The notes under the pieces were generated by a model. It did not search any database. It was given only the letters and a program-made list of their open reading frames with translations, and was not told where the DNA came from. Position numbers and translations under genes: made by a program. A stretch of 43,588 bases of DNA from a virus. The stretch spans positions 1-43,588 of the IMG/VR virus record IMGVR_UViG_3300035199_000815; one strand, given 5' to 3'. Below, in pieces: positions 25,354-43,228 of this stretch (the first letter of the stretch is position 1; each line of letters begins with the position of its first letter).

Positions 25354-27150
25354 TTACCTAATCTTTCCTTTGATGTCTACTGAAGGATACTTGATTTCAA
25401 AAATGGCGTTGCGGGGTGCGATCAGCGAACCACCATCGGGTGATAGATTCTTTTGGACTTCGAACGCGACCGAGGAATAGCTTCCACCCAGCTTGTTATA
25501 AAGCTTAACTGTCACGACATCTAAGATATCTCCTACCTTGTTCAATTCGTTATAAATGCCGCTAATAGAAATCTCTTCCGCAATAAAAAATCCTTCTTGA
25601 AACTTTGCCGTGAGTGCATTAACGGCATTGTTAAGAACATCAGCGCGGTGGGCGCCGGGGACTGGCTTAATTACAAAGTCAATTCCCATATTAATAATAT
25701 AAGGATCGAGAATATCAACAGTATCATTAATCATTCTATACTGTTCGAGCCAAGTTTTTAAATTATTTTTAATGGAAGAGTTGGTTTTAGTGAGCAATCC
25801 GAAAGAATCTTCAGAAATCACATACATATTTAAGTTTCGTTTAAGAGAATCTTGATCTTTTTGAACGGATACGCGCTTGATAGAGCCATATTTAGCAGGC
25901 ATTCTATAAGCTAAATTTTCATAATCAGCCTGTGTCACCGCACGATTCTGTGTGGGGAAGGTGTCGAAGATTCTCCTCTTTATTTCTCCCGTCGAAGGGG
26001 TAGACACGTCGCCAACGATAGGCTCCTCATTAGACACTTCCAAAGATTGAACAATCTCCTGTACAGTTGTATCACTTAGGATGGTTCTATCTGCGAAATC
26101 CATCATAGTGCTGGATACTGTGTCTAGGGCGCCGGCTGATACGTTTGAGTTCGCCGGGTTGGTGGTACGATAGGTTACAGTTAAAGTGGTGTTGGCGGGG
26201 CAAATCCCAAAGTTCTTGTTTTTAGAAAGTCGCGTAGGGTCAAATGCCGTATCGGTAACATAGCTCTTCCCAAAAACATCAATTGCTACTTGTTGAGGGT
26301 TTGCTACCACATTTGACTCAGCAGCATTGCCGCTTCCAAACTGCAAGTATGCGATATCTCGACCGCGCTCAACAATAAACTTTCGAGAAACCAAGAAAGG
26401 CTTTAAAATAGAGGGGACATTGTCGCTTTGATAGTTAGTGTTTGCCAGTTCTTTAAAGATCATATCTTGTGCCAAATACTCAACTTCAAAATATTGATTA
26501 CCTTCGGAATCAAATACTGAAATAATTTCGGAGATATTTGTGCTTGCTAATTGAATTCTTTTAAATCTCTCAAAAGCGCCGACATCGACTGTTTCTTGAC
26601 CAAAGTGCCCGGAAACCACATTCCCATATGCTTTGATTGCATAGTGGGTGGGGGCACCACTTTCGGCGTCCACCTGTGCAACCACCGTCTGGTTGCTGGG
26701 ATCAGAAAAGGATACGTTCTCTGTCAAGACAAAGGCTAAACCGTTTTGTGAGCTAAATGTAGTGCCTCGGGATAGTGTAGGTATGTAAGAAGGATCGGGA
26801 CCCATACCAGTTGTGATGGTAGGAACTTGAATATACAAAGCGACTGGACCAAAGGTGGATGGGCGGCCGAGGTTTTTATACCCCAACACTCTTCCGTGAC
26901 GGACCACATTACTATATTGATATGCGGTGTCTAGGAAAGACTCGTTAACGTTATAATCCAGATAGAGCGCAAGCTGGTCACCGACATATGCGACGGCATC
27001 CAGCATCATAGCACCGAAGGAAGCTTCACTAAAATCTTGAAAGTTTTCAGGATAGAACCTTTCGGCCATTTGAAGCAAGTCGCTACGTATACCTTCGAAC
27101 TCTCTATGAGTGTAGTTAATCGGTAAAATTTTCTTTTGATCATCAGCCAT
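25354..27150 (-). CDS. 6: Baseplate wedge protein, gp6 / baseplate J family
   Basis: The protein of about 598 aa matches the T4 gp6 family. The N-terminus has YTHREFEGIRSDLLQMAERFYP, then FSEASFGAMMLDAVAYVGDQ and NESFLDTAYQ. The C-terminal half has the baseplate J pattern GEIKRRIFDTFPTQNRAVTQADYENLA followed by an alternating alpha/beta domain. gp6 dimers form the inner ring of the baseplate wedge in contractile tails. The frame is also open from a TTG at 27153, but the ATG at 27148-27150 with a GAGG site upstream is preferred. It follows the gp25 gene by 15 bases, the usual pairing. Confidence 0.92.
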   Translation of the reverse strand: MADDQKKILPINYTHREFEGIRSDLLQMAERFYPENFQDFSEASFGAMMLDAVAYVGDQLALYLDYNVNESFLDTAYQYSNVVRHGRVLGYKNLGRPSTFGPVALYIQVPTITTGMGPDPSYIPTLSRGTTFSSQNGLAFVLTENVSFSDPSNQTVVAQVDAESGAPTHYAIKAYGNVVSGHFGQETVDVGAFERFKRIQLASTNISEIISVFDSEGNQYFEVEYLAQDMIFKELANTNYQSDNVPSILKPFLVSRKFIVERGRDIAYLQFGSGNAAESNVVANPQQVAIDVFGKSYVTDTAFDPTRLSKNKNFGICPANTTLTVTYRTTNPANSNVSAGALDTVSSTMMDFADRTILSDTTVQEIVQSLEVSNEEPIVGDVSTPSTGEIKRRIFDTFPTQNRAVTQADYENLAYRMPAKYGSIKRVSVQKDQDSLKRNLNMYVISEDSFGLLTKTNSSIKNNLKTWLEQYRMINDTVDILDPYIINMGIDFVIKPVPGAHRADVLNNAVNALTAKFQEGFFIAEEISISGIYNELNKVGDILDVVTVKLYNKLGGSYSSVAFEVQKNLSPDGGSLIAPRNAIFEIKYPSVDIKGKIR

Positions 27151-27165
27151 CAAAAAACCTCATTA

Positions 27166-27531
27166 TTAAATAGTAAATTCTAATAAATCTGCTATTCCTA
27201 TGGCGGGTATTGTGTAATCAATCCGTACCGACAACTTATTTAAATCTGGCTCAATGCCAAAATCGAGTTCCGTAATAGAAATTGCAGGAATATAAAGCGA
27301 CGTCTGTTTTAAGATTTTGCTACGAACTTGTTCGTGTACGTTTTCGCTATAATTTAAAAACAAATAGGTCCTAAGCCCACACCCAAAATCTGGATCCATC
27401 ACTCTTTCGCCGGGATCCGTTAACAAAAGCATCTTAAAATTTTGCTTCAGGGTTGACTGAATGCTTTTTAGCATTGTAAACCCATCGGCTGAGTTGTGAG
27501 TGATGGGCAGTCGCACGCCTATTGAAGCCAT
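27166..27531 (-). CDS. 25: Baseplate wedge protein, gp25-like
   Basis: A 121-aa protein of the GPW/gp25 family. The features are a helical start (MLKSIQSTLKQNFKMLLLT), the conserved DPGERVMDPDFGCGLR turn (T4 gp25-like proteins have a G-x-R...P-x-F-G-x-x-L core), and the amphipathic helix FLNYSENVHEQVRSKI leading to beta strands. gp25 binds gp6 and starts sheath assembly at the baseplate in T4-like phages. The length (121 aa) is normal for the family. The start ATG at 27529-27531 has a GAGGA ribosome binding site and a TATTTAT motif 17 bases upstream. Together with gp6 it is firm evidence of a contractile-tail phage. Confidence 0.93.
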   Translation of the reverse strand: MASIGVRLPITHNSADGFTMLKSIQSTLKQNFKMLLLTDPGERVMDPDFGCGLRTYLFLNYSENVHEQVRSKILKQTSLYIPAISITELDFGIEPDLNKLSVRIDYTIPAIGIADLLEFTI

Positions 27532-27556: not shown

Positions 27557-30500
27557 TCACTTCTTGCATAATTGCCCGTCTGAATTAAATGGATTCGTTC
27601 GGAATGGCGTAAACCACCCAAACAGGTTCATTCCTACCGGTGGATACATTGAAGATTTTAGATTATTTATCAAAATTTGTGAAGGCTTAAAGTCATCATC
27701 ACCAGTGGGGTTGAACTCTCTTGTGTTATAGTAAGCTTTAAAAAGGCGTTTGATGCGGGCTTTGGAGTTGCGCAGGAGTATCTGATCCCAGTTGTCCCAT
27801 TCTTTAACCCCCCAGTAGTCGCTGCGGCGGGGGGCGGAGCCTCCATATTGCCAGCCGTCGGTGCTGCCGTAGCTAAGGGATTTGTCGTCCTGGACGGTGA
27901 TCCGCATACCCGGCTTTTTGCTCGGCGTACTTGAATTCTGTGCTGTGCCGTCGCCGAGCGCTCCCCAACCTGGGCGCGGTGTAGTCTTTTCTCCGATAGA
28001 GGGCATGAATCCCACATCGTTATACATTGCCAAGATCGCTGTCATCTTGGTTGTGCTGAAAATATAACGAGAGAGCAATCTAAATGTGTTATCCTTTTTA
28101 AGTAATTTGATGAGACAAAGTAATATCTTGGTATTAGGAGCCAGCTTTTTAAAGGCTTTAACGGGCAGGTCAAGAGCATCTAGCTCTATTGATGTGAGGA
28201 GAAGCTTTTTCGCCCCCATCACCACAGAAAGTTCGAGTCCATATCGTACTCCCATTTCTCCCGTAATTCCTACTACTCTTTCCTTTTCTTCTCCGGTGTG
28301 ATCATCGATCACTACCGTTTTAACTGTTTCTAGGGTGCCAGGATAAATATCATGTAAGTTGGCTTCGGGATCGTTGGCGACAATCTTATCATAAGCATCT
28401 TCTGTATTGTATCTGCTCCCATTAATACTAATGTACTTCTCTATTATAAAGGGTTTCTCCGAGTCGGGGGCGACAGTCACCGCGTCATAGTCGGCTATAT
28501 CGCCGAGATCTCTCTCGCCCCAAGCCGTTTCCACTTTCACCACTACTTGGTGAGCGTAAACAGTTAATTCTCCATGAGGTGTGTCGGAGTGCTCTTCACC
28601 CTCCATATAGATAATGTTGCCCATTTCATCTTTGGTTATATGATAATAGCCCACATAATCATCGCCGTCAGGTTGTGTGGATAGCTCGCCACCATCAGTA
28701 TAATACGGTCCGTCGGCGTCCTCGTTCTGTTCGTAAGGCACTTCTGGAAGGGCTTCAGCTTTTTCAACAAAATCACCCTGAAGCTGAATGCTGCCGCCAT
28801 CGGAATCGGAGCCGCGACAGAAATACTGCATAAAGTAATAATCCATATCTTTATACTTAGGGTTGAATCCCACTCCCTTCAAGTTGTCTATAAACTTCTT
28901 ACCCATAGTGTTCAACTCTGTCATCACTATTTCTTTGAGAACAAGTTTCGCGTCTTCTTCCGTTTGTTGAATTGCTTCATAATTCTTTTCGGTGCGGAAG
29001 GACGCTAAGGTATCGAATGGCCAATCCTGGGCTTCATTAGTATCGCGGGCTGCCTTTAGTTCTTCCTCATAAGCATAATTGAAGTTTTCTTGCATATCGT
29101 TAATGCGAACAAGTGCATCGATGACGGTTTGTGGTGCGTCAGTTATTTCTTCCGCATCTACACGGCGTGAATACGTTTGAACCGCTTGCTCTAAAAACGA
29201 ATACCAAAATTCTTCATCTTTAAACGTATTAAAAAATTCCCAGCCGGCGGTTTGTGCATCTTTAAATCCTTCTTCCATGACTTCTACAATATAGCTTGCG
29301 TATAGAGCGCTATATGTTTCAGGAAATTGAGGATAAAAGGTACTAAAAGTTGCTAAGCCCTTAACTAAATGTGTGCTAGCATAAATTCTACATGCTGCCG
29401 AAATTAGCCCCTGGATACCTGCCTTGTTGGGGCGCATAAGGATCCTGTTATATGGCAACTCAGTCATACATTCGGGATCGTTTTTTAATCTGTCGTCTTC
29501 GGGTATTGTGGAATAAGCTTGGCTAATTTCTCCTTCAATGCTGCTAAAATCAACTAGATCTGTCAACTGTGGTTTGCAAGGGCTTAATTCAGGGAACAAA
29601 ACCTCAGTCATTCCCAGCCACCCGGTGTTCTTTAAGGGCTTCACATAAACGGGAGGGTTAGAAAAGCTTCCTCCATATGTGCCGGGGTCAAGATAAAAGA
29701 CACGATTTTCGCGAGATTCGCCCAGGTGATCTTGTCGCCACTGCATCGCACTGATCCCCAAAATACCATCATCGTTTGTAATCTTTACTTCTTCACCTTC
29801 TCCGTCTAATATATACGCATCTCCATATTCTGTTCCGCCGGCGCTTTCGGTTTGTCCGGGCTTTACGACATATTCTATATCCGCTTCAGTCAAATCATCA
29901 TACTTGGCGCCATACTTCCATCCTTGCGTGTTCTCAACAATTGCAGTTCTAAAATTCTGAAGAATTTTTGACATGAAAGAGTCATGAAAGTCTTTTATGG
30001 CAGCTTCGGTTCCGGTATATCCAGCATTAGATAACATATTGTACAACAATATTACTTGTGGCATGTATCTACCCTTTGTTCCAAAGGATTGCAAGAAGAG
30101 TGGGTATTCGGAGGTATCTACCTCGTGAAGCGTATTATCGGTCCCTACAAATTCATATTTGCGATCTTTAATTATCATTTCGCCGGAAGCCTCTGCTGCT
30201 TCATCCTCTAACTCTGCAATTTCCTCGTCTGATAATCCGGCTGAGGGTATGTTGGGGACCGCTTGGTTCCTGAGTGTGACAATACTTACGCGAGCATTGT
30301 CCGCAAATACATTGTGAATTGTTTCGACTGGAGTGCGCGTGCCCAATGCGCTCCCATCAGCCCTTTCAATTTGAACACCCTCGGCGGTGACCAGTGACTC
30401 GACCATCTTTGTCCCGGTCACTATAGAACTTGCCGCACTTAATCCCGCAGGAGGGGGTCCCTCAACGAGATCAGAAAGGTAGAGATTAACATTATAACCC

Positions 30501-33500
30501 CATGACCATGGAGTTACTCCTTGAGCGCGTTTTCCTTTATTGTTGTTCTTGAATTGTAGCTGAATGTCCGTATGATCTTTTCGTCCGGCGCGGGTGATGG
30601 TAACCTCTTCATCTTCATAGTCTACTCCAAAGCTTACATTATATCCGTATTCGGGCATTGCCAATAAGTTTATGTTTAGTGTGCCAAACCATCCCTCAAA
30701 TCCCAAGTCTTCAAAACTTCGTGTAAATATTTCAGGTTTTTGCCAGTCGTTGTTGGAATCAAAATTTAATTCAAGTCCTGTCATTTGATCCTTTAGCCAG
30801 CCGGCTACCCACTTGGGAAATTGTCCTTGTTGTTGGTCGACGGAGACCGGATCTGGGAATAGGAGGTCCCACCAGTCGCCGTCCCAGGTTGGCTGTTGCA
30901 CAAAATCTACTCGTTCTCTATCTCCAGAAGTCCGTCTTCGGTGGGCTGAGAGTGGCATCCCAGAGGTATCTGCAAGAATCATGTTGATGAATCCCCAGTC
31001 TGAATCTCCAGCAAACAAGCCACCGTTCCCCAGCATATCTCTCGAAAAATCAACCTTAAGGTGCTCAAGCGCATCGCTCAATACCTTGCTCGTAACTTTA
31101 ACTGCTTCTTCTGACTCAAAAGGAATCAATCCATCATCGCAGCCAGGAGTTGATATAAAGGGAGGCAGAGCGTCCGCTAGCGCTTCTGGGGTGCCCTTCT
31201 GAAGCCAATCTCCGATATTATCCAAATCTTCTAACATTTCTTTTTGCATGTCGTCAAACATTGTTCGACACTGCGTTGGAGTTGCGCGCCCTTCCAACAG
31301 TGTGCACCGCAAGTCTCTAAAATTATTAAGATCTTCTTCAGTCGCACACAAGGAAGGGTTGGCTGGGAACATCGCCGATTCTGGCATGTCGTCTAACATG
31401 TTTCTCATGGAATCTCGAACGTCTGCTGGAAAGAGATTACCCATGGAGCCAAAGAAGTCGGCCAATCCTTGTTTGTTGGGAAGCCCATCTCTAAATTGAG
31501 GATACTCATAATCTAGCAGATCCTCAGCCAATTCCAGAAACTCGTCTGAGGGATCTCCGAGCAGTGCGTTTGTTAGTTCGTCGGCGGTTACTGCCGAAGA
31601 TAGGTCCCCTGCAAAATTCATTACGGCATCGCGGTCAGCTAGCGCGGCGCCGCCGATACCGAGCTTTTCAAACATGTCTGCGATGGTGTCCTCAACTTTC
31701 TGGTCGGAGGCGTCCTCGCCGCAAATAGATTCACGTATAACGTCTGCAAGCTGCGTGCGACCCGTTACGAGTCCCGGGAGAGAGGCGGCAACGTCACCGA
31801 CAACGGCGAGGGCGTTACAAATGGCATCTCCAATTAATTCACATAACTTAACAATCAATTTTATTAGAATGCTCATGATTGTCTGCATAACTACAATCTT
31901 AAAGATTTCAAAGATTTTCTTCGCGAGATCCCAAAAATCTGGGATCCACCCAAAGGGGTTTGTCAGCCCTGGCAGCGTGATGTCGTTTATGTTTTTGCAA
32001 AACGGCAGTTCGATGCTTTTAATAAAATCCATGAAACTGGGGTCAAAGAGCGGTGGGCGCGGGCAATCGAACATAGCGATAACACTAGCAATCAACTGGG
32101 CGCCAGGATACTTATTGAGCATGTCTATGAGTCCAAGAAAATCCTCGGCATATTCCTCTAAGATTGCTGCCGTATAAGCCTGAAGAACGACATCAGAGGC
32201 GGCGCTGGGGCTTTTATGTGCTTGTTCGTATTGTTGTGCGAGAGTGCGTTCTTGTTTGGTGGACGGTCCGCTTTCCTGGCGCTTTTCGGCTTCAAGAGCC
32301 TCTTCGTCGTCCCATGGAGCTACAAAGTTTATTTTTCCAAAGAGCGGCAGGTCGTTCTCGGTACCGGGAGCGGCGCCTTCTTCGATTCTGCGAGATAACC
32401 TTTCGCCTCCCGATTGAGCTTTAAAGAAATCTCCCTCGTTGAGTTTTTGTTGTACTAGTGCGTTAAGCTTGTCTTGTTTCTCCGGAGGCAATCCCACGAA
32501 TAGATCGCCGTAAGTGGTGATATTCATATTCTCCAGAGCTGCTTTTGCTACGCTTGCCAATGCTTGCTCAAGAGTAATTCCTTTGAACAGACATTTAATG
32601 GCATCAACAAGCATCCCTTGCAGTCCACAATTCTTTACTTGTGCCAAAGGTCCATCAAAAAGGTTATCGAGATGCCGCATAGGATTGGGGGGAGCCGGGA
32701 TGGCGCTAGCGAGGTCGGGAGAGTTTTTCTTTGCGGCTGCTATGCGTTGTTCTTGTTTTTCTTTCATGCCGCTGAGTGCGATCATTTCGAGAGTGGCTGC
32801 ACATACTTTTGTAAATACCTGCTCTTCTTTGTTAAGTTGTTTATAGGCTTGTTCACGAGCAAGAAGAAGCATAGGCTTGTGCCCTTTCTCCCCCTTCTTT
32901 GGGTTGGTGGGATCCCACGTTATTCCTAATTTGTTAGTGGCATCAATGGCTTCTTCAACGTCTTTCTTGCATATATTTTTATTGAAAGCATACGCCAGAG
33001 CATCCCCTAAGCCAAAAACATCATCCATGATATCTTGACCAAGTTGCTTCATTTCTTTATCAAGCGCCTGCCCAACGCACCCCAAAGCATCAGCATTAGC
33101 ATTATCCACTTCTTCTCTGGGATAGTTAAACTTTGATACCACCTTAGGCCACGTATAAGTCTCGACGATCTCAGTCCATGGAGTTTCTACTCGTGACTGA
33201 AGAGCACCATCAAGTTTGTCTAGTTGAGCAAAATAGGCGCATGCGGTCGGATCTTTCCATGCTTCTGTTGCTCTCAAACTATCCAGACTTTTATTATATA
33301 ACAATGGAGTCTCGGGGCATCCTTGCACCCAGACTCTAAGTTTCGTTAGCTTATATTCTTTGTTAAATGTAAATTCGAGCTTTTCTGCGCGCTTGATCCC
33401 GAAATTAATAACAATATCGCCAACGCCAAAAATGTTTAATCCTTTTCCATTAAGCCATTCGTCCAATCGCTGCAACAGCGCATACATAAGACTGCCTCTG

Positions 33501-34372
33501 TCGCCCAAACCATCGCCATATTTATCAAAAGCGCTTTTGGTGAATACTTTTCCGGTCAAAGGCGCCTGATCAAAAACGAAGACCCCGTTATCGATAGCAT
33601 TAAAAACGCGATAATAACGAGAATATAAATCCATGGCGCGCCGGAAGCGATTTAGCTTGGGAGCAATCTCGTGCGCCACATACTCGACTACAGTATCGCC
33701 GGCCTCCTCTTCTTCTTCGTCGCTATCGTCTGACGCCTCCTCAATCGAGGCAAAATCCTCATAAGGTATAGTATAAAGAAGCCTTACGCGAGCCGTGTTA
33801 CGCGGGCTGAGGTAGTACTTCGTGAATTGAACAACCTTTGATAGCTCATCGCGAGTAAACTGATCGTTCTTCTTGGTAAAGTTTTTTAGTAACGATTCAA
33901 TCGCCGCTTCTCTATACTCTTCAAAGATTCCTCTAACAAATCCTTCTGCTTCTAGATCCTCTCTCTCGATGGCTTCCAGATCTGGATCTGCCGGCATCTC
34001 GATTGCAGAATAGGCGATAGGGACATTCCCTTCAGTCATAGAGATCGTGGGGTCCCCTCGCCCGCCCATGCCAGCTTCAGACGTCAAATCTATAGTGGGT
34101 ACGCGGACGATATCGCCAATAGTTTGCTCTTTTACTGTGGTGTATTTCGTAACAACCGCCACTTGGTAAGTGCAATATTTCTCGTTAAACCAAGGTTCGT
34201 GAATCTTCTTCTTCTTCCAATTCGGAAGAACTGCGTTTGGATTTCGTCTACAAGGGGGACAATTTTTTACTTCTGCGACAATCTCATCGTCAGGGCATGC
34301 ATCATGTTGAAGATTGCCGTTCTTATCCTGCCATTTTAAAATCTCGGATTTGTTTTTAGTTTCGCCTGCCAT
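27557..34372 (-). CDS. Giant virion structural protein (2271 aa)
   Basis: A 2271-aa protein begins MAGETKNKSEILKWQDKNG. The N-terminal 80 residues contain several cysteines (DACPDDE, NCPPC, EKYC). The first 700 residues are mostly helical and charged. A strongly hydrophobic helical stretch lies at about residues 815-865 (KIVVMQTIMSILIKLIV, then LCELIGDAICNALAV). The later part has Glu-rich and Asp-rich segments. No known catalytic motif is evident. Its place between the hub lysin and gp25/gp6 suggests a central baseplate, tape-measure or hub-scaffold role. The start ATG has no strong ribosome binding site (GTAGAAAATT precedes it) and lies 11 bases after the 352-aa gene. I cannot assign the function. 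Confidence 0.82.
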   Translation of the reverse strand: MAGETKNKSEILKWQDKNGNLQHDACPDDEIVAEVKNCPPCRRNPNAVLPNWKKKKIHEPWFNEKYCTYQVAVVTKYTTVKEQTIGDIVRVPTIDLTSEAGMGGRGDPTISMTEGNVPIAYSAIEMPADPDLEAIEREDLEAEGFVRGIFEEYREAAIESLLKNFTKKNDQFTRDELSKVVQFTKYYLSPRNTARVRLLYTIPYEDFASIEEASDDSDEEEEEAGDTVVEYVAHEIAPKLNRFRRAMDLYSRYYRVFNAIDNGVFVFDQAPLTGKVFTKSAFDKYGDGLGDRGSLMYALLQRLDEWLNGKGLNIFGVGDIVINFGIKRAEKLEFTFNKEYKLTKLRVWVQGCPETPLLYNKSLDSLRATEAWKDPTACAYFAQLDKLDGALQSRVETPWTEIVETYTWPKVVSKFNYPREEVDNANADALGCVGQALDKEMKQLGQDIMDDVFGLGDALAYAFNKNICKKDVEEAIDATNKLGITWDPTNPKKGEKGHKPMLLLAREQAYKQLNKEEQVFTKVCAATLEMIALSGMKEKQEQRIAAAKKNSPDLASAIPAPPNPMRHLDNLFDGPLAQVKNCGLQGMLVDAIKCLFKGITLEQALASVAKAALENMNITTYGDLFVGLPPEKQDKLNALVQQKLNEGDFFKAQSGGERLSRRIEEGAAPGTENDLPLFGKINFVAPWDDEEALEAEKRQESGPSTKQERTLAQQYEQAHKSPSAASDVVLQAYTAAILEEYAEDFLGLIDMLNKYPGAQLIASVIAMFDCPRPPLFDPSFMDFIKSIELPFCKNINDITLPGLTNPFGWIPDFWDLAKKIFEIFKIVVMQTIMSILIKLIVKLCELIGDAICNALAVVGDVAASLPGLVTGRTQLADVIRESICGEDASDQKVEDTIADMFEKLGIGGAALADRDAVMNFAGDLSSAVTADELTNALLGDPSDEFLELAEDLLDYEYPQFRDGLPNKQGLADFFGSMGNLFPADVRDSMRNMLDDMPESAMFPANPSLCATEEDLNNFRDLRCTLLEGRATPTQCRTMFDDMQKEMLEDLDNIGDWLQKGTPEALADALPPFISTPGCDDGLIPFESEEAVKVTSKVLSDALEHLKVDFSRDMLGNGGLFAGDSDWGFINMILADTSGMPLSAHRRRTSGDRERVDFVQQPTWDGDWWDLLFPDPVSVDQQQGQFPKWVAGWLKDQMTGLELNFDSNNDWQKPEIFTRSFEDLGFEGWFGTLNINLLAMPEYGYNVSFGVDYEDEEVTITRAGRKDHTDIQLQFKNNNKGKRAQGVTPWSWGYNVNLYLSDLVEGPPPAGLSAASSIVTGTKMVESLVTAEGVQIERADGSALGTRTPVETIHNVFADNARVSIVTLRNQAVPNIPSAGLSDEEIAELEDEAAEASGEMIIKDRKYEFVGTDNTLHEVDTSEYPLFLQSFGTKGRYMPQVILLYNMLSNAGYTGTEAAIKDFHDSFMSKILQNFRTAIVENTQGWKYGAKYDDLTEADIEYVVKPGQTESAGGTEYGDAYILDGEGEEVKITNDDGILGISAMQWRQDHLGESRENRVFYLDPGTYGGSFSNPPVYVKPLKNTGWLGMTEVLFPELSPCKPQLTDLVDFSSIEGEISQAYSTIPEDDRLKNDPECMTELPYNRILMRPNKAGIQGLISAACRIYASTHLVKGLATFSTFYPQFPETYSALYASYIVEVMEEGFKDAQTAGWEFFNTFKDEEFWYSFLEQAVQTYSRRVDAEEITDAPQTVIDALVRINDMQENFNYAYEEELKAARDTNEAQDWPFDTLASFRTEKNYEAIQQTEEDAKLVLKEIVMTELNTMGKKFIDNLKGVGFNPKYKDMDYYFMQYFCRGSDSDGGSIQLQGDFVEKAEALPEVPYEQNEDADGPYYTDGGELSTQPDGDDYVGYYHITKDEMGNIIYMEGEEHSDTPHGELTVYAHQVVVKVETAWGERDLGDIADYDAVTVAPDSEKPFIIEKYISINGSRYNTEDAYDKIVANDPEANLHDIYPGTLETVKTVVIDDHTGEEKERVVGITGEMGVRYGLELSVVMGAKKLLLTSIELDALDLPVKAFKKLAPNTKILLCLIKLLKKDNTFRLLSRYIFSTTKMTAILAMYNDVGFMPSIGEKTTPRPGWGALGDGTAQNSSTPSKKPGMRITVQDDKSLSYGSTDGWQYGGSAPRRSDYWGVKEWDNWDQILLRNSKARIKRLFKAYYNTREFNPTGDDDFKPSQILINNLKSSMYPPVGMNLFGWFTPFRTNPFNSDGQLCKK

Positions 34373-34382
34373 AATTTTCTAC

Positions 34383-35441
34383 TTATGTGGAATATACATT
34401 CCTGCTTGTGACATATTTGTATCCAATGGGGTATGCATAGTTAAGCTCCCAAACAATTTTATTAACTCGCGTATGCCATAAAGAATTTTGAATGATTGCA
34501 CAATATTGAACTCCTGTGAATCCCTGCATTATACCATAGTGGGGCATCCGCCAATTAATTCCAACGATGGAGTTGAATGCATTCTGTAGCAAAGTCATCA
34601 TATATACAGTCCCAATGAGTTGTCCTAAAATTTTTGATAGTGACCGGAATGCATCTCTAGTATTTTCGCCCTTCGCCACACCCTGTAAATTATTAACACT
34701 CATTTCGGGGAGCCAGTTGGTGGCAGCATACTCCGAAACGCCATCGTTATTTCCTGCTAAAAGCTGAATGGGGGGCGCCGGCATGCTGATTTCGCCGCCA
34801 CGTGAGTTCTTCTCGCCGCCCTTGCCGGCTTTGAACGCAAACGAGCGACCGGTCGTTAGCTTAATTCCCTCTCGCCCGACAAGTCGAACAGCATCTGCTT
34901 TAATTGCAACAGCGGATTGTGCCATCTGCTCTGTCGTCCTACCTTTGGCGATACCAAAGTTTATATCAACGTCTGTAAGTTGGCTAATATATATGCGGGC
35001 GGCGTCGGTACAAATCGACGGGCTTACCGTTGAAACCTCTCCGGCGGGCCCGGAGCCCGGCGGAGTGCCAGCGGATGACATACGTCCTACCACAATGTCA
35101 ATTGTGCTGCATTTATTGCAACCTTGAGCACCGAAGCCGCTAGCAAGACTAGCCGGACGATCACGACCAAATACAATTCCTCCTGCGGCGCCGCCAGGAC
35201 CTAATTGAAGTGAATCGGGTGCCGCTTCAAAATTCATCGGAAGCTCGGGGCCGGCTGTGTGAGCGATTCCCGATTTAGGGGGAACAAATGACGCTAAAGC
35301 GTCGGCTTCCTGATCGATGCCAGCTTGCTCCCAAAATCCCGCCGAGTCCTCAACGCCCATCAATAATTGATTGGACTTTATCAGGGCGCGCTGGCGCTTA
35401 TTCAGAGCCTTTAAGTTTAATAGTGGTATTTTCTTTGCCAT
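34383..35441 (-). CDS. Baseplate-region structural protein (352 aa)
   Basis: The 352-aa protein has no signal peptide or membrane segment. It has a basic N-terminus (MAKKIPLLNLKALNKRQRAL), a Gly/Ala/Pro-rich segment at about residues 70-100, then alternating strands such as ARIYISQLTDVDINFGIAKG and AVAIKADAVRLVGREGIKLT, which resemble the repetitive beta-helix parts of phage spike and hub proteins. A CNKC pair lies near residue 110. It sits right after the hub lysin, so a spike or hub-associated component is inferred. The start ATG follows a weak ribosome binding site (AGAG) in a 70-base gap that also contains a TTATTTAA motif. Confidence 0.72.
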   Translation of the reverse strand: MAKKIPLLNLKALNKRQRALIKSNQLLMGVEDSAGFWEQAGIDQEADALASFVPPKSGIAHTAGPELPMNFEAAPDSLQLGPGGAAGGIVFGRDRPASLASGFGAQGCNKCSTIDIVVGRMSSAGTPPGSGPAGEVSTVSPSICTDAARIYISQLTDVDINFGIAKGRTTEQMAQSAVAIKADAVRLVGREGIKLTTGRSFAFKAGKGGEKNSRGGEISMPAPPIQLLAGNNDGVSEYAATNWLPEMSVNNLQGVAKGENTRDAFRSLSKILGQLIGTVYMMTLLQNAFNSIVGINWRMPHYGIMQGFTGVQYCAIIQNSLWHTRVNKIVWELNYAYPIGYKYVTSRNVYST

Positions 35442-35511: not shown

Positions 35512-36918
35512 TTATCGGGATGCGAGGGCGCTGCACATGGCGGATCCTTTTTTCCAATAATAAGTGCTTGGCAATGTGCCGTTTCCGTCGGTCACTTCAG
35601 AGCCACCCTCGCGCATTCCAATGGCACCACAGGGCTTGCCGCCGGCTGATCGGCAGCTTTTCCCGCCGGAGCCGGCGAGATGGGCGGCTCCTAGCATCCC
35701 GGCGACATCCGCAACGTTATTTAAATCTACATGCCCCTTTATTGAATTGAATTTGCGCTGCACCAACGCATCCATGGATTTCTCTTGAGCGGAGTCGTTT
35801 CCTAAATATTGATTTACGTGATTGACGCCGGCGGTGCCTCTCCAGTTGTTGGTATAGCGTTCCGTAGTTGGCTTACCGTCCGAATCTAGTTTAAATGCGA
35901 GTTCTCGATTTTCGAGAATGCTCATAACGCACGACTTGGATCCCGCATGCTGTCCGCCGCATTTTGACCGAACATGTTTCCACACTCCTTTTTGTAAAAA
36001 TCTAGTATCTTCAAGTGCTATGACACCAAATTGGTATTTGCCTAGATATGCTGCTTGATTGTTGGAGTTAACATCTCCTTCTGTTTTGGCAATGGATTTT
36101 TTGAAATCTTTCCAAGCTGAACCAAAATAGGCTTTTATGTTTGTGGCTGAGGCATCGGCCGGTGGGGGCGCGCACGGTAGGGCGGCTTTGATGGCAGCAA
36201 AATCTACATTATACCGTGTGGACTTCGCCTTTTTGTATAGCGATAGGGATCCGGGGCGTGCATTTGGTAGACCAGCACTACCGCCGGACCCACCACCACC
36301 AGTACCACCAGCCATCATGGAATAATCTAATTCGAGAATGTCTCCGAGTTCCGTATAATCAAACTGGTCAAATTGACCTTTCAAATTTGTGCGGCACATC
36401 TTATCAACATCAGAACCCTCACCCACTGACTCCAGTGAATCAAAAAAAGCATATTGAAGATTGAATTTAAAATCGCCAGGCATAATTGTAACCTTTACTC
36501 TGTCACCAATATCCGGGATTTTCCCTTCGAACTTCTCGCTAGAGAAAAATTTGGTATGCCAAGAACATATCTTAGAGACACAGCCTGCTTGTTTCGCACT
36601 AGTAACCAAGCAAGGGTCAGGGACTGTCACATGTGGCGATGGAGCATCTCCTCCCTCAGACAATATTCGACCCATAAAAACAATGCGAGCAGTCTTGCTG
36701 TTTTCCCACAGTGGGTCTTTTGCCTTGGAGGCTGCCATAACTGCCTTAAAATCGTTTACACTCAAAGGGAGCGGCCGCGTTAAAACTCTTACAATGAACG
36801 TGCTGCGAGATCCATATATATCGGGAGCAACAGCTTGGCGAATTGAGTTCATTCTAAACTGACCAGCGCCGTGTGGCGTTGTCATTAAAGCGCGATCATA
36901 TTTTCTTTTTACTGACAC
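35512..36918 (-). CDS. Baseplate hub protein with lysozyme-like domain (468 aa)
   Basis: The N-terminal domain of roughly 190 residues (APDIYG ... FIVRVLTRPLPLS ... IVFMGRILSEG ... IPDIGDRVKVTIMPG ... QYAFFDSLESV) is shared with the 579-aa gene next door and contains a strand pattern suggestive of an OB fold, as in tail hub proteins. After a Gly-rich linker, the C-terminal half carries a lysozyme/transglycosylase-like domain: a likely catalytic Glu at about residue 280 in AKTEGD, then YLGKYQFGVIAL. Cysteines later in the domain may form disulfides. This fits a gp5-like hub that digests peptidoglycan during infection. The start is GTG at 36916-36918 with AAAGGAG 7 bases upstream; a longer frame to 37020 lacks this support and does not align with the paralog. 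Confidence 0.85.
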   Translation of the reverse strand: MSVKRKYDRALMTTPHGAGQFRMNSIRQAVAPDIYGSRSTFIVRVLTRPLPLSVNDFKAVMAASKAKDPLWENSKTARIVFMGRILSEGGDAPSPHVTVPDPCLVTSAKQAGCVSKICSWHTKFFSSEKFEGKIPDIGDRVKVTIMPGDFKFNLQYAFFDSLESVGEGSDVDKMCRTNLKGQFDQFDYTELGDILELDYSMMAGGTGGGGSGGSAGLPNARPGSLSLYKKAKSTRYNVDFAAIKAALPCAPPPADASATNIKAYFGSAWKDFKKSIAKTEGDVNSNNQAAYLGKYQFGVIALEDTRFLQKGVWKHVRSKCGGQHAGSKSCVMSILENRELAFKLDSDGKPTTERYTNNWRGTAGVNHVNQYLGNDSAQEKSMDALVQRKFNSIKGHVDLNNVADVAGMLGAAHLAGSGGKSCRSAGGKPCGAIGMREGGSEVTDGNGTLPSTYYWKKGSAMCSALASR

Positions 36919-36986: not shown

Positions 36987-38726
36987 CTATAGGTCCTTCC
37001 ATGCCGGATGTTTGCCGCAAGTGGCATAATGCCCATCAGCGCGAGAGACCCAACCCCAGTCCTTTCCTTCTCTGCCTGGGCAACCACTGGTGTTATTACA
37101 CTTAGACTGAGTACATTTTTCGCCAGAGGCGATGGCAAGAGCTTCACTCTCAAATTTGCCGCCTCCCCATGGACTCTTGGCTGAGGCGCCGGGCGCTACT
37201 CCCAATTTGCTCTGGGCTTCGGGATTAGAACATGCGCCGGCGCCATAGCAAGACGGGTGGCGTTTGCAAAAACTTTTAAAGGGATAAAAAGCCTCCAGAT
37301 ACTTCGCATACTTCCAGTTAGCGTTCTCATTTAGTATAATTTTTCCGGACGATCTTCGTGTATAATAAGGAATTCCATTATTGCTCTTGCATAAGTATGT
37401 TTCCCAGCTATTAAACCTTTTAGTGTAACTCCAGAGGTCCTCGGGGCTGGGCGTCGTGCCGGCTTGACGGTCGGCTAGTTTTCCCGGGATCGTCTTTTGC
37501 CAAGGGCTGGCTTGTGCGGTGGTCTCGCGGGGTAGACCGGTCTTGCCAGAGGGGGCTGTGACCATCATCTGAGCATTGGCGCCCTTTGAAAGCCATGCTG
37601 CCACCATAAAGCCTGTCCGATCCGCGCCGTGCGTGCAGTGAATCAAAGTATTGCCGACATCAAAAAATGGCATTACTTTTTCGAGGGACTTGACATATCC
37701 CCTGCCGCGTACAAAACCTGATTGCGCATAAATATAATGGAATTTTGCTTTCGTTCCCGGAGGAGACCCGGCGGGATGTAGGCTTTCTGCATATGCTTGT
37801 TCCAAAGCGTGGGAAACACAAACACCATAATTTTTATCATGACTATACGAGATATCGTTTCCGGTATTACCGTTCATTTTTATTATATCAGTAACTCCCT
37901 TTACTTCAATAAGCCACTTTAAATCTTGCAAGTGAGGCTGCTGGTATCTCCAGTTGTTATTTCCAAACATCTGCAACATTTTAGATTTTGTTCCTGTAGA
38001 ATTCGGATAGGTTGGAGGAGTTTTAACCTTCGAAAACAAATCCCCTACAGTTGTGGGATCTGTTTCTTGTGCGCATTTACCTGATTTATTTAGCTTGGCG
38101 CCGGATGCGCCCCCCGTAAAGCGAGCCGTCACCGGAGGATCGACTGTGGGGAGCACGTCTCCCAAAGGATTATATGCAGAAGTGTCAAATAGTGCACGAA
38201 AATACTTGCACCTGTCGTCCGTCGCGGCTGCTGTTATAGAGTCTAGCGATGTGAAAAATGCGTATTGAAGATTGTATTTAAACTGGCCTGGCATAATCGT
38301 CACTTTAACGCGGTCTCCTATGCTGGGTAAAAGCCCTTCGTACTCTCCCTCTGAAAAAAACTTAGTATGCCATGATATTATCTTGGCAGCGCATCCAGGG
38401 TCGGCGGAGAGGGCGGGGTCGCAAGGATCCGGAATTGTCGAATGGGGGGAAGGGGCGTCTGTTCCTTCCGACATAATACGCCCCATAAAAACAATACGCG
38501 ATGCAGTGGATCCTGCTAACGCATATCCTTCGCTTCCTATGGCGCCCATTACCGCCTTAAAATCATTTGCGCTGAGGGGCATTGGTCGAGTTAGGACTCG
38601 CACAATAAACGTTTCTTTATCTCCATACACATCAGGTCGAACTGCATCTCGTAAAGCCTCATTGTCTGCTTGTTCGGCCTCATGTGGCGTGGAGAATTCC
38701 GAACGAGCAAAGACGCGATTAGCCAT
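36987..38726 (-). CDS. Baseplate hub-like protein fused to Cys-dependent phosphatase domain (579 aa)
   Basis: The N-terminal domain (to about residue 195) is paralogous to that of the lysin gene: IVRVLTRPMPLSANDFKAVM, IVFMGRIMSEGTDAPSPH, IGDRVKVTIMPG and LQYAFFTSLDSI. The C-terminal part has the phosphatase P-loop IHCTHGADRTGF, with nucleophile Cys364 and Arg370 (C-x5-R), preceded by FFDVGNTL and followed by a helix, as in tyrosine/dual-specificity phosphatases of the HC-x2-G-x-DRTG type. The last 110 residues are Cys-rich with Lys, Gly and aromatics (CKRHPSCYGAGAC, CTQSKCNNTSGC), perhaps disulfide-bonded or metal-binding. The substrate is unknown. It overlaps the start of the preceding 100-aa gene's end by 8 bases, and its stop is 68 bases from the lysin start. 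Confidence 0.82.
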   Translation of the reverse strand: MANRVFARSEFSTPHEAEQADNEALRDAVRPDVYGDKETFIVRVLTRPMPLSANDFKAVMGAIGSEGYALAGSTASRIVFMGRIMSEGTDAPSPHSTIPDPCDPALSADPGCAAKIISWHTKFFSEGEYEGLLPSIGDRVKVTIMPGQFKYNLQYAFFTSLDSITAAATDDRCKYFRALFDTSAYNPLGDVLPTVDPPVTARFTGGASGAKLNKSGKCAQETDPTTVGDLFSKVKTPPTYPNSTGTKSKMLQMFGNNNWRYQQPHLQDLKWLIEVKGVTDIIKMNGNTGNDISYSHDKNYGVCVSHALEQAYAESLHPAGSPPGTKAKFHYIYAQSGFVRGRGYVKSLEKVMPFFDVGNTLIHCTHGADRTGFMVAAWLSKGANAQMMVTAPSGKTGLPRETTAQASPWQKTIPGKLADRQAGTTPSPEDLWSYTKRFNSWETYLCKSNNGIPYYTRRSSGKIILNENANWKYAKYLEAFYPFKSFCKRHPSCYGAGACSNPEAQSKLGVAPGASAKSPWGGGKFESEALAIASGEKCTQSKCNNTSGCPGREGKDWGWVSRADGHYATCGKHPAWKDL

Positions 38727-39021
38727 TGGCTGGATCGTCCCCTTGAATCAAATCAAAGAGACTGTTTTTATCGTCTTCAGTCAGCATGACTTGCGCTCCG
38801 ACTTTCTTCTGGCGCAATCCGATAAGCTTGACTAATTGTTCGTTGGAGCGCTGCAGCGACTGAACGTGCTGTGCGGCGACCGGGCTTAAGTATTTATTTT
38901 GGGTCGCGTCAGAAGCAATCTGGTTAGCGATCTCATTCAAAAACTCACGTGCTATTTTACGATCATTACGAATATTATCCAAAGCTTCATCGATTAATAT
39001 TTCTAAATCTTGGTGGTTCAT
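38719..39021 (-). CDS. Small protein next to the late sigma factor (100 aa)
   Basis: The preferred start is ATG at 39019-39021, giving MNHQDLEILIDEALDNIRND. It overlaps the sigma factor stop as ATGA, so the two are translationally coupled; an upstream in-frame start at 39039 lies inside the sigma gene and is less likely. The protein is mostly helical, acidic, and has a Gln/Arg-rich middle (VQSLQRSNEQLVKLIGLRQKK) that could form a coiled coil. I see no clear similarity to the T4 late co-activator gp33, although the neighbourhood makes a partner of the sigma factor conceivable. Its 3' end overlaps the 579-aa gene by 8 bases. The family is unknown. Confidence 0.7.
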   Translation of the reverse strand: MNHQDLEILIDEALDNIRNDRKIAREFLNEIANQIASDATQNKYLSPVAAQHVQSLQRSNEQLVKLIGLRQKKVGAQVMLTEDDKNSLFDLIQGDDPANG

Positions 39022-39722
39022 AATGTGCCGGACTCCCAATCAACTCTAAAATGCTCATACTTCTTGCGGAACTTCTTCAAAGAGTTTACGATTTGCTTGG
39101 TGTTGAGCCCCGTAATCTCTCGAAGGTATAGATAAATAGCTTTTTTATTAAAAATTTCGATATCTTCCTTGGATTCAAAAAGAATAATAATAGCTTTATA
39201 TACTTTTAAATCGTTATCCTTCATTTGAGATACGTCCCAGGACTTTAGCTCACCATAAAAAAGTTCCCAAAACTCTTCTTCTTCTCGTATTGTAACATAA
39301 GACTCACTGGTGGAGAGGTATTCCTCTTCATAGCTTTTGGATATGTTGTCATAATCTACCTCGCGGCGATTACGTTTTTGTTGCCTTTTTACTTTATGGA
39401 TAAACCAATTTTTTGTTATGACCGAAAAGTAAGAAAAGGCTTTAGAGCCTTTGTTGGGATCGTACTTGTCGAGAATGGTCATTAACCATATCTTACACTC
39501 ATCACGGAGAGAGTCACAATTAGGCAAATTGGTAAACTTATAAGTAAAAACTATTTTGTCTACCATTTGATTGAATGCGGGACCGATCCATTTAATATAC
39601 AGGTCGGTGCGCTCTCTTGAACAATTAGTTAGCGTATAGCGAACAATTGCATCTTCATGGTCTTGTGTAAAATAATGATTTTTTGGGGCTTTTTTTCTTT
39701 TTCTACGGGGTTTCGTCGTCAT
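39018..39722 (-). CDS. 55: T4 gp55-type late-transcription sigma factor
   Basis: The 234-aa protein has a very basic N-terminus (PRRKRKKAPK). Residues about 50-115 match sigma region 2 as in T4 gp55: NQMVDKIVFTYKF, then LRDECKIWLMTILDKYDPNKG, then KAFSYFSVITKNWFIHKVKR. A C-terminal helical segment (about 195-222, IYLYLREITGLNTKQIVNSL) resembles a helix-turn-helix. gp55 directs host RNA polymerase to phage late promoters. I do not see the clear C-terminal clamp-binding hydrophobic motif of T4 gp55, so how it contacts the sliding clamp is open. The gene overlaps the upstream 117-aa gene by 20 bases and is coupled to the 100-aa gene downstream. Confidence 0.88.
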   Translation of the reverse strand: MTTKPRRKRKKAPKNHYFTQDHEDAIVRYTLTNCSRERTDLYIKWIGPAFNQMVDKIVFTYKFTNLPNCDSLRDECKIWLMTILDKYDPNKGSKAFSYFSVITKNWFIHKVKRQQKRNRREVDYDNISKSYEEEYLSTSESYVTIREEEEFWELFYGELKSWDVSQMKDNDLKVYKAIIILFESKEDIEIFNKKAIYLYLREITGLNTKQIVNSLKKFRKKYEHFRVDWESGTL

Positions 39723-40556: not shown

Positions 40557-41390
40557 TTATTTGATGGATATAGCTCTTCCCAGCATGGAGAGCCAATCCT
40601 TTTCTTCTCTAATTTCTAAATTCTTGTTCCATGCGCATTCTAGTACGCTTGGGTCTATGCCTTGTTGTTTGGCAAAATATATTAAACAATTCAAATCTTT
40701 GGGGAAACAAGTTCCACCAAATCCAAGTATACCATCTGGGCCCGGAACTTTTAAGTGACTATTTCCAATTCGCTTGTCAAGCAGCGCTAAATCCTTTACG
40801 ATATCGTATTCAACATCAATTGCATTGCAAATTTGGTTTATCTCATTGGCAAAAGAAACCTTGCACGCAAGGAAAGTGTTTATAAAATACTTCACCATCT
40901 CAGCAGTGCGCCAATCTGTCTGTTCATATTGTTTATTTGGAAAAACTTCCTGCATCATGGCAACACAAACGGCGGTATGCTCCGGGGCGCCACCAAAAAT
41001 AACGCGATTACATGTTTTAAAGTCTTCCACGGAGTTGCGTTCTGTCAAAAACTCTGGGCTAAACACAATTTTTATCTTAGGATTGCGCATAGCTAAGTCA
41101 TCACATGTACCCGGTGGGATTGTAGACTTGATGATTACAATATTATTGTTATACCAATAGGAAATTTGTGCCATTACATTATAAATGATTGATAAATCAC
41201 ACTGTCCGGTCTCTTTCATTGGCGTTGGAAGCGCCACATAAATGATATCAGAGTTGTGACACACATCTCTAACGTGCCCGCACGTCGAACGAGATGCATC
41301 TTTGTCGTAAACGGCAAACGGATAGCTATCTTTCATGTTTTCGTAGATAGCATTTCCTACAAACCCTCTTCCTATCAATCCTAATTTCAT
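40557..41390 (-). CDS. UDP-glucose/GDP-mannose dehydrogenase family, short form (277 aa)
   Basis: The N-terminal Rossmann motif is GLIGRGFVG (residues 4-12). The NAD-domain strand IVIIKSTIPPGT and the family segments FSPEFLTERNSVED and AEMVKYFINTFLACKVSFANE follow. The catalytic cysteine is Cys228 in GFGGTCFPKDL. This family oxidises UDP-glucose or related nucleotide sugars to uronic acids with NAD. At 277 aa it is much shorter than the usual 390-450 aa because it ends soon after the central helix, so the C-terminal nucleotide-sugar-binding domain is missing. Short forms may still act if a partner or altered substrate binding compensates, or may be inactive. It is 9 bases after the GT29 gene. 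Confidence 0.88.
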   Translation of the reverse strand: MKLGLIGRGFVGNAIYENMKDSYPFAVYDKDASRSTCGHVRDVCHNSDIIYVALPTPMKETGQCDLSIIYNVMAQISYWYNNNIVIIKSTIPPGTCDDLAMRNPKIKIVFSPEFLTERNSVEDFKTCNRVIFGGAPEHTAVCVAMMQEVFPNKQYEQTDWRTAEMVKYFINTFLACKVSFANEINQICNAIDVEYDIVKDLALLDKRIGNSHLKVPGPDGILGFGGTCFPKDLNCLIYFAKQQGIDPSVLECAWNKNLEIREEKDWLSMLGRAISIK

Positions 41391-41399
41391 AATTGTGCC

Positions 41400-42074
41400 T
41401 TATTCATGAATGTTTATTATACCATTCTTTTGTAAAAGTGAAAATATTTTCTTTTCATTGTCAAAATCGTGCCCTGCGACCATGTTATAACTGTTGATTT
41501 CATCGAAATAGTGCTTCTTAACAGCCGGATCATAGAACGAAAACCCATAACAATCAATCTTGGAGTAGAACCGGAGTGCCATTAGCAGCCCTATGAAGCC
41601 GTTTGTCGCCTCTTTACCCCCATTTAGCTTGTTTCCTAACTCATAAAAGTCCTTGTGGATGAAATAAACCTCATTTTTTTGCCTTACTTGGTCTAAAATG
41701 TGGGTTTTTTGCCACAATTGCCACGTCGGATCTGTCTTAAAAATGATGATTTCACCCTCTATTTTATACAAAAGCTCCCTATCAAGCTGTGGATGTCGTG
41801 CTTTTTGCTGTGCAAAATAGGCGTTATCTTCGATATTGAGGATACTGTGGCAGTTCATGAGGCGAAAAGTGGTTCGAGAGCCTGCATGCTTCTCAAACGA
41901 GGCAGTTTTTGCGCCGTTAAACCTAATGACATCATCGCTGCTGTCGATGTCGGTCCCGTGCTCGTTATCTAACAAATTGCCAGAGCTTCCCACGATAGAA
42001 CACACACTCCCCGGTGTAAATTCCCTTTCTTCTCTTAAGAAGTTCGTCTCTTTTATTTTGTCTATCAGTTTCAT
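41400..42074 (-). CDS. GT29-type sialyltransferase, compact (224 aa)
   Basis: All four sialylmotifs of the animal-type GT29 family can be found. Motif L is at about residues 25-72 (CSIVGSSGNLLD, then GTDIDSSDDVIRFN, then GSRTTFRLMN). Motif S is at about 156-178 (ATNGFIGLLMALR...IDCYGF). Motif III is H188-Y-F-D191. Motif VS is H202-x4-E207 (HDFDNE). GT29 enzymes transfer sialic acid from CMP-sialic acid to glycans. No membrane anchor or signal peptide is present, so a cytoplasmic enzyme is expected. The ATG overlaps the dioxygenase stop (ATGA). NeuB two genes upstream suggests a matched donor pathway. Transfer from a eukaryotic or marine bacterial source is possible but not shown. Confidence 0.85.
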   Translation of the reverse strand: MKLIDKIKETNFLREEREFTPGSVCSIVGSSGNLLDNEHGTDIDSSDDVIRFNGAKTASFEKHAGSRTTFRLMNCHSILNIEDNAYFAQQKARHPQLDRELLYKIEGEIIIFKTDPTWQLWQKTHILDQVRQKNEVYFIHKDFYELGNKLNGGKEATNGFIGLLMALRFYSKIDCYGFSFYDPAVKKHYFDEINSYNMVAGHDFDNEKKIFSLLQKNGIINIHE

Positions 42075-42829
42075 GTTTGTCTATTGTGATAATAAATGGC
42101 CATTCGATCCCGACTTTCGTCTTTAAGAACGCCGCCACCGTGCCATACATCAGTGTTCAATACCAATAAGTCGCCCGGAGAGGCGCCAATGTATACTTTG
42201 TCGTCTTCGGTATATCGCGACTCAAAAAGTTCTTGATAATCTATAAATCGATGAGAGAATCCCTTTTTAAAATTTGCCTTGTGCTGCAGCATATTCTCGC
42301 GGATGTGTTTTCCCTCGTCATGAGAGCCTGGGATTACAAAAAGGGCTCCGTTATTTTCGTCGGTCTCCTGCAGCATCACTGCAAACTTTAACGCAGGGTA
42401 GGGGTCGAAGTGCAGCCATGAATTGCGGGGCACTTCATCACCTTCAGTTTTCTTGTATTCGTGAGTAGTAAAGACTTGCATTAGTTTTCTATTGGGCGGA
42501 GGATAAAAGTGATTAAGAAAGTCATCCAAATATGGATCCTCGGCGATAAGGGAAATTGTTTTTCCAAACATCGGGTAATATTGGGGATTGATAATTCGCA
42601 TGGCTTTGCCGGTTTCGTGAGTGTTATGCTTTTTAATACCCCCGAAGCCAAACTCGACGTTGGTGAAATCGGGAATCTTGTTGTATATGATGGTAAGTTC
42701 ATCTTTAACTTCTTCTAACTTTTCCGTATCAAAATACGATATTACTTTAAGGGCTCCTATCTCACTAAAAATACTTTTTGCTATAGAGCTATCTTCCTTA
42801 AATTCTTTTCCGCTTATGTCGAAGGTCAT
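42071..42829 (-). CDS. Phytanoyl-CoA dioxygenase-like Fe(II)/2-oxoglutarate oxygenase (252 aa)
   Basis: The iron-binding triad is visible: H140-x-D142 in WLHFDPYP and H230 in VWHGGG, with a 2-oxoglutarate-binding Arg nearby (R240 or R242 in SRDRMA). The motif NNGALFVIPGSH is typical of the phytanoyl-CoA dioxygenase family. These enzymes hydroxylate small molecules or lipids using 2-oxoglutarate, oxygen and iron; several members modify sugars or secondary metabolites. The length is normal. It overlaps the cupin by TAATG and the GT29 gene by ATGA, so the three are one translationally coupled unit. A role in modifying a nonulosonic acid or other glycan is an inference from context; the substrate is unknown. 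Confidence 0.82.
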   Translation of the reverse strand: MTFDISGKEFKEDSSIAKSIFSEIGALKVISYFDTEKLEEVKDELTIIYNKIPDFTNVEFGFGGIKKHNTHETGKAMRIINPQYYPMFGKTISLIAEDPYLDDFLNHFYPPPNRKLMQVFTTHEYKKTEGDEVPRNSWLHFDPYPALKFAVMLQETDENNGALFVIPGSHDEGKHIRENMLQHKANFKKGFSHRFIDYQELFESRYTEDDKVYIGASPGDLLVLNTDVWHGGGVLKDESRDRMAIYYHNRQT

Positions 42830-43227
42830 TAGTCACCCTTTAAGATCCGATAACTATCAGTATCGTAATGTGTCGTGGAGAACTCAAACAATTCCGAATC
42901 CTCCAGTGCCACCATCTGATGTCGCAAGCCGCGATAAACGTGGAAGTTGTCGCCGGCATTGAGAATCAATTGGTTGGCGTTCCTGATATCATCTTCCTTA
43001 GAATAATATATCATCATCTTACCAGATTGCAAATAAAAGACTTCATCTTTAAGTTCGTGATAATGCCAAGAGCACCTTTTTCCCCCTTTGAAGTAAAGAA
43101 GTTTGCCGCAATACTCTTCGTTATTGACGACCCAACGCTCCCAGCCCCAGCCTTTGTCCACGTGTTTCATCGGTAATTCGTGCCTATTGCATGCATTACA
43201 AACGATATCTTTTGGCTCTTCTCCCAT
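42829..43227 (-). CDS. Cupin-fold protein (132 aa)
   Basis: A single-domain cupin. Motif 1 follows G-x5-H-x-H-x4-E-x6-G exactly: G49, H55, H57, E62, G69 in GKRCSWHYHELKDEVFYLQSG-type spacing. Motif 2 gives G92 and H103 (GDNFHVYRGLRHQ), so the usual metal ligands His/His/Glu/His are present. The N-terminus has CNAC (C10, C13) and a Trp-rich KGWGWERW segment that resembles the start of sugar-isomerase-like cupins of capsule loci. The function could be isomerase or epimerase on a sugar precursor, or a regulatory sensor. It is 1 base from the NeuB gene and overlaps the dioxygenase gene, so it belongs to the glycan unit. Confidence 0.8.
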   Translation of the reverse strand: MGEEPKDIVCNACNRHELPMKHVDKGWGWERWVVNNEEYCGKLLYFKGGKRCSWHYHELKDEVFYLQSGKMMIYYSKEDDIRNANQLILNAGDNFHVYRGLRHQMVALEDSELFEFSTTHYDTDSYRILKGD

Positions 43228-43228
43228 C

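Follow-up and report, generated by a model that had tools for sequence, protein, structure and literature searches.

Can the hub of a contractile phage tail carry a phosphatase and, if so, what would such an enzyme do there? To our knowledge, the tail-tip enzymes described to date act on peptidoglycan or on surface polysaccharides. The question is raised by a gene of a 43,588-nt viral stretch of DNA (IMG/VR record IMGVR_UViG_3300035199_000815, analysed over its whole length and referred to below as the window), whose product an earlier note had read, from the sequence alone, as a baseplate hub domain fused to a tyrosine/dual-specificity-type phosphatase.

The C-terminal module is a predicted phosphatase domain of PTP/DSP fold

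The gene, designated here hub-phosphatase, lies at 36987..38726 on the minus strand and encodes, from an ATG start, a 579 aa protein; the ORF agrees exactly with its description in the earlier note. An N-terminal domain (residues 1–200; 38127..38726, minus strand) is followed by a phosphatase domain (residues 242–489, about 245–490; 37260..38003, minus strand), which was delimited by homologues, profile and AlphaFold fold and displays the predicted catalytic P-loop HCTHGADRTG (residues 363–372; 37611..37640, minus strand) with Cys364, Asp369 and Arg370. The protein ends in a Cys-containing tail that starts at Cys487 (36990..37268, minus strand) and has the form FC-x5-C-x5-C; a related three-Cys motif is present in six relatives (L111, L113 and L118–L121).

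Cys364 and Arg370 stand at the residues that had been named (H363-C364-THGAD-R370-TG), and the segment has the HCx5R[S/T] P-loop of the PTP/DSP superfamily. Over the six reading frames of the window the HCxxGxxR[S/T] form occurs once while plain Cx5R gives 205 matches, so that the plain motif carries little weight and only the long form is meaningful. The earlier note had proposed an HMM search and a structure prediction as checks. In the former, the window protein itself falls just under the Pfam cut-offs (Y_phosphatase3, 21.6 bits vs 22.2; DSPc, 17.7 vs 33.5), while relatives of the domain exceed them, either for Y_phosphatase3 (L116, 24.4 bits; L118, 22.4; L119, 23.0) or for Tc-R-P (L123, 36.5 vs 27). 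A profile built from 14 phage relatives matches solved PTP/DSP chains, with the best E-value (2.6e-7) for a viral RNA 5'-phosphatase and an E-value of 4e-6 for the periplasmic TpbA. The AlphaFold model of the phosphatase part (pLDDT 74.5, pTM 0.75) displays the PTP/DSP alpha/beta fold around the P-loop, whose helix is followed by a long insertion modelled with low confidence. The best fold matches of the model are Siw14 and AtPFA-DSP1 (VIA Z 12.6, Siw14 over 139 residues), with TpbA at Z 10.9. Since relatives pass the Pfam cut-offs, the profile matches solved chains and the model agrees, we regard the PTP/DSP fold as settled. The structure prediction thus did not give the outcome by which the note would have been refuted, namely the lack of such a fold at the motif. 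Fold, motif and homologues thus uphold the phosphatase call on the C-terminal module, which by sequence and model is a phosphatase domain of PTP/DSP fold with predicted catalysis.

The window copy has no Asp or Glu in the usual WPD/IPD-type general-acid loop, and in most hub versions neither residue was seen there; predicted activity therefore rests on the Asp of the P-loop. By analogy, C364 would be the nucleophile and R370 would bind phosphate, with D369 the probable general acid: an Asp at the equivalent position is catalytic in MptpB and acts as general acid in myotubularins (PMC3091653). These three residues and the flanking HCTHGADRTG are unchanged in 14 of the 14 aligned sequences, whose relatives are 22–47% identical to the window copy, an invariance that is partly a selection effect because HCTHGAD served as search pattern. 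Two scans with other alignments, in which a second pattern outside the P-loop was added, gained no relative lacking the P-loop. Finally, dN/dS is about 0.1–0.3 in four pairs of phosphatase-domain relatives, showing purifying selection at the sequence level on these relatives, from which alone the ratio comes because the pair formed by the window and L006 is saturated.

The N-terminal domain and the gene neighbourhood point to a baseplate hub

The N-terminal domain had been described as common to hub-phosphatase and a neighbouring hub lysin, and this is borne out, with 55% identity over residues 4–192 (E 9e-69). The paralogous hub-lysin gene (35512..36918, minus strand) joins the shared domain to a lysozyme-like one, which matches phrog_27932 ('baseplate hub subunit and tail lysozyme', E 4e-5) and also the lysozyme region of phiM9 gp068. 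Its start is likely the GTG at 36918, which follows an AGGAG, rather than the TTG at 37020, and the overlap of hub-phosphatase with the TTG-started ORF is thus probably not real.

Both genes are part of a baseplate cluster on the minus strand, in the order late-sigma-factor-like gene (39018..39722; phrog_234, 3.8e-5), small ORF, hub-phosphatase, hub-lysin, a gene for a 352-aa protein (34383..35441), a gene for a 2271-aa protein (27557..34372, given no function by Pfam or PHROGs), a gp25-like baseplate wedge gene (27166..27531; PF04965, 1.3e-11; phrog_261, 6e-17) and a gp6-like one (25354..27153; phrog_219, 1.7e-18). Hub-phosphatase therefore lies with the gp25 and gp6 wedges, as a T4 gp5-type hub would. 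The 352-aa protein, kept after the hub genes in relatives and matching no Pfam or PHROGs family, is by its position a candidate central spike. Downstream of the wedge genes we also noted a 3954-aa ORF (11565-23429, minus strand).

The N-terminal domain was modelled with a mean pLDDT of 66, and its nearest folds are OB folds, matched weakly (Z about 6.5); in BFVD the best fold match is a 'Peptidase M23B' protein of a marine virus. Neither PHROG nor Pfam has a named family that it matches, these libraries holding described families only, and the phrog_27932 match of the neighbour is limited to the lysozyme part. A PHROG profile search with 15 N-terminal domains likewise gave chance-level matches only. 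According to Pfam, the domain carries VanY in two relatives (L011 and L015) and Phage_lysozyme2 in the second hub of L006, and in L111 there are weak SLT and glucosaminidase matches; no identification was obtained for the cargo of L017 or of the second L113 hub. The latter paralogue (L113:2284-4107) contains a hydrophobic region that by eye resembles the pre-toxin segments of polymorphic toxins, with no Pfam support. As to the earlier assignment to a baseplate hub, position, lysin cargo in relatives and the weakly OB-like fold speak for it, while no PHROG or Pfam family match does. Because no family model names the domain, its assignment as a hub subunit is a strong positional inference rather than a proven identity.

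The hub–phosphatase architecture recurs in other phages

The same architecture was found on five other phage contigs (L006, L007, L111, L112 and L113). As L006 hardly differs from L007, nor L111 from L112, these contigs represent three lineages besides the window, and such recurrence argues that the fusion did not arise by chance. Counted on IMG/VR contigs, which are fragments, the window, L006 and L113 each have a pair of hub paralogues, whereas L111/L112 have three. The family of the N-terminal domain extends to further phage contigs, where cargo is often carried on two or three tandem paralogues.

The hub-phosphatases do not form a single branch in the tree of N-terminal domains, on which the label has to change three times or more; the tree thus does not support a fusion that was inherited vertically from one event, and cargo shuffling or within-genome homogenisation of the N-terminal domains appears more likely from the sequences. 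In more distant wedge relatives the hub N-terminal domain has no sequence match, and the positional equivalents carry M23, GDSL and VanY/M15-like domains. One distant phage has at the hub position three tandem ORFs with a common N-terminal domain (L104:12026-15350, minus strand), two of which carry M23 and GDSL/SGNH.

Y_phosphatase3 was found in none of 18 further related phage records. Annotated phages hold no relative of the whole hub-phosphatase protein or of the L006 version of the phosphatase part, and they gave chance-level matches only to the phosphatase part of the window. A cyanophage host was considered and gained no support from psbA, which was not found in 26 related contigs.

The phosphatase domain also occurs outside hubs

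A scan of viral contigs with the phosphatase alignment gave a set of 15, which two scans with other alignments reproduced. Hub fusions account for five of them. Four (L118–L121) join the domain to a lysozyme/endolysin and PG_binding_1, and three (L123, L124 and L125) to a muramidase-like module, with weak muramidase matches in L123 and L124. In two (L116 and L117) the protein is short, with a signal-like segment at its N-terminus, and one contig is of another kind (L122). The protein of L124 and L125 has, by eye, a C-terminal SGNH-like stretch, which Pfam did not confirm. No relative of the compact or muramidase-fused proteins was found in annotated phages, none of which covers the L119 and L123 architectures. 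L118–L121 adjoin a helicase gene and look like endolysins, not like parts of a tail, and there is a portal gene near L122; the domain is thus not exclusive to hubs. Most of the ten bacterial relatives found have Sec, Tat or lipobox-like N-termini, as judged by eye. The common theme, as far as the sequences suggest, would be action on the envelope alongside wall-cutting enzymes.

A phosphatase and a lysin may be brought to the periplasm together

In the reading that we favour and consider fairly probable, a multi-enzyme baseplate hub brings a phosphatase and a lysin to the periplasm, where the phosphatase removes phosphate from the envelope; location, activity and class of substrate are what we infer here. 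Of the two paralogous hub subunits, one would bear the phosphatase and the other the lysozyme, and the shared N-terminal domain would place each in the tail tip, as the OB domain of T4 gp5 does. Upon tail contraction both enzymes would enter the periplasm, by analogy with T4 gp5-gp27. The phosphatase might then take a phosphate monoester off a host envelope molecule (an LPS/lipid A phosphate, a phosphorylated wall glycan or a lipid phosphate), and dephosphorylation could ease the passage of lysin and tail tube across the envelope. The exact substrate is the least certain part of this explanation. Delivery of the phosphatase at injection is quite plausible, and the case for it is strengthened because the domain is fused elsewhere to peptidoglycan-lytic modules and because bacterial relatives mostly have export signals, as judged by eye. 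The earlier note had proposed delivery into the periplasm or the cell; of the two, the periplasm is favoured.

Two narrower forms of this reading can be set out, whose probabilities consequently overlap with its own. The first, to which we give some credit while thinking it rather doubtful, is that the phosphatase clears a phosphate substituent off peptidoglycan, or off a glycan linked to the wall, and so opens it to cleavage by the partner muramidase, in the manner proposed for O-acetyl esterases, which would unmask wall glycans. The fusions of the domain to muramidase-like or lysozyme and PG-binding modules are consistent with this, as are the GDSL/SGNH and M23 domains on the tandem hub-position paralogues of the distant phage and the L124 protein, in which muramidase-like, phosphatase and (by eye, Pfam not confirming it) SGNH-like parts are combined. 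However, DSP-fold enzymes normally hydrolyse monoesters, and most known wall phosphates are diesters.

The second form, which we judge unlikely, places the substrate in the outer membrane, where removal of LPS core or lipid A phosphates would loosen the membrane at penetration. A tail-tip enzyme meets the envelope first, the bacterial relatives mostly have export signals (by eye), and a possible precedent exists in the Caulobacter phosphatase CtpA, hypothesised to dephosphorylate lipid A (PMC10331486). Against it, the modules to which the domain is repeatedly fused, peptidoglycan-binding and muramidase, speak for the wall instead.

It is less likely still that the phosphatase is an injected effector which dephosphorylates a host protein or signalling molecule, either in the periplasm in a TpbA-like manner or in the cytoplasm. 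TpbA works on the periplasmic part of TpbB (PMC4409338). The P-loop studied here is like those of protein and RNA phosphatases, and some relatives match Tc-R-P, the Pfam family of polymorphic-toxin phosphatases; yet the fusion to a hub domain and lysins suggests a role at the wall or in penetration, and we know of no hub enzyme that reaches the cytoplasm. That the fold is degenerate or structural and retained for binding only is very improbable, for although the usual general-acid Asp is absent in most hub versions and the window copy has its long low-confidence insertion, the P-loop is invariant across divergent relatives, the second-pattern scans added none lacking it, and dN/dS is low in relatives.

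The favoured reading, in which phosphatase and lysin reach the periplasm on one hub, can tentatively be extended. Some contractile-tailed phages may have a mixed-enzyme hub made of two or three tandem paralogues with the same N-terminal domain and different cargo (for example phosphatase, lysozyme and glucosaminidase-like), by which envelope decorations, phosphate or acyl, are removed first and the wall is then cut. Such a hub, if true, would give the cell-puncturing device a new layout and make the phosphatase a new class of virion enzyme. A conserved hub phosphatase recurrently tied to lysins would also mean that phosphate in the envelope is a genuine obstacle to injection, and would point to a new enzyme with which lysins could be paired. 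With paralogues in tandem, the make-up of the hub, normally three-fold, can be put to a direct test.

Relation to known phosphatases and hubs

Siw14 and AtPFA-DSP1, the best fold matches (Z 12.6), differ from the window domain in being eukaryotic atypical DSPs that act as inositol-pyrophosphate phosphatases, and identity is 14% over the aligned part. TpbA of Pseudomonas aeruginosa shares the PTP/DSP fold (Z 10.9) and has a similar P-loop (HCKHGNNR vs HCTHGADR), and it is periplasmic; however, it acts in signalling as a protein on its own, fused to neither hub nor lysin, and its proposed general acid is Asp105 (PMC4409338). Like the MptpB-type lipid phosphatases (HCXXGKDR; PMC3091653), the window domain has an Asp at P-loop position 6 and no WPD loop, whereas its architecture is different and position 5 is Ala368 instead of Lys, so that the defining MptpB signature is not matched.

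The T4 gp5-gp27 hub passes into the periplasm on contraction (PMC3004832). An N-terminal hub domain followed by an enzyme is common to gp5 and hub-phosphatase (OB in gp5, weakly OB-like here). The window differs in its phosphatase cargo, in having two adjacent hub paralogues and in encoding the spike-like protein by a gene of its own. The hub of cyanophage A-1(L) is trimeric with dual hydrolytic activities (PMC10966104). It resembles the hub proposed here in bearing more than one envelope-degrading enzyme; in A-1(L), however, lysozyme, endoglucanase and peptidase are on one polypeptide and there is no phosphatase. Enzyme-bearing and multi-enzyme hubs are thus already known, while phosphatase cargo was not found in the literature searched. 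Phosphatases go unmentioned in a 2017 review of virion-associated enzymes (PMC5380687), none of the papers listed in the search dealt with a dual specificity phosphatase together with bacteriophage, endolysin and peptidoglycan, and the literature on muramic acid 6-phosphate gave no lead. The earlier remark that no tail-delivered phosphatase of this form had been described held in the literature searched, apart from a Crassvirales review which mentions that possible phosphatase domains figure in the annotation of some tail-spike subunits (PMC10136315); this annotation, which concerns spikes and not hubs, is the nearest precedent.

A sugar-metabolism island lies beside the tail genes

Beside the tail genes we observed a sugar-metabolism island (41400-42074, minus strand, with 40557-41390, 42071-42829, 42829-43227 and 43229-43588). 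It includes a GT29 sialyltransferase-like protein (PF00777, 7.5e-32), a UDP-glucose/GDP-mannose dehydrogenase and a cupin; inspection by eye adds a sialic-acid-synthase-like fragment and a protein resembling dioxygenases. The same island is found at the same place in L006, where the sialic-acid-synthase-like and cupin parts, which are two ORFs in the window (42829-43588), form one 419-aa ORF (L006:2616-3875).
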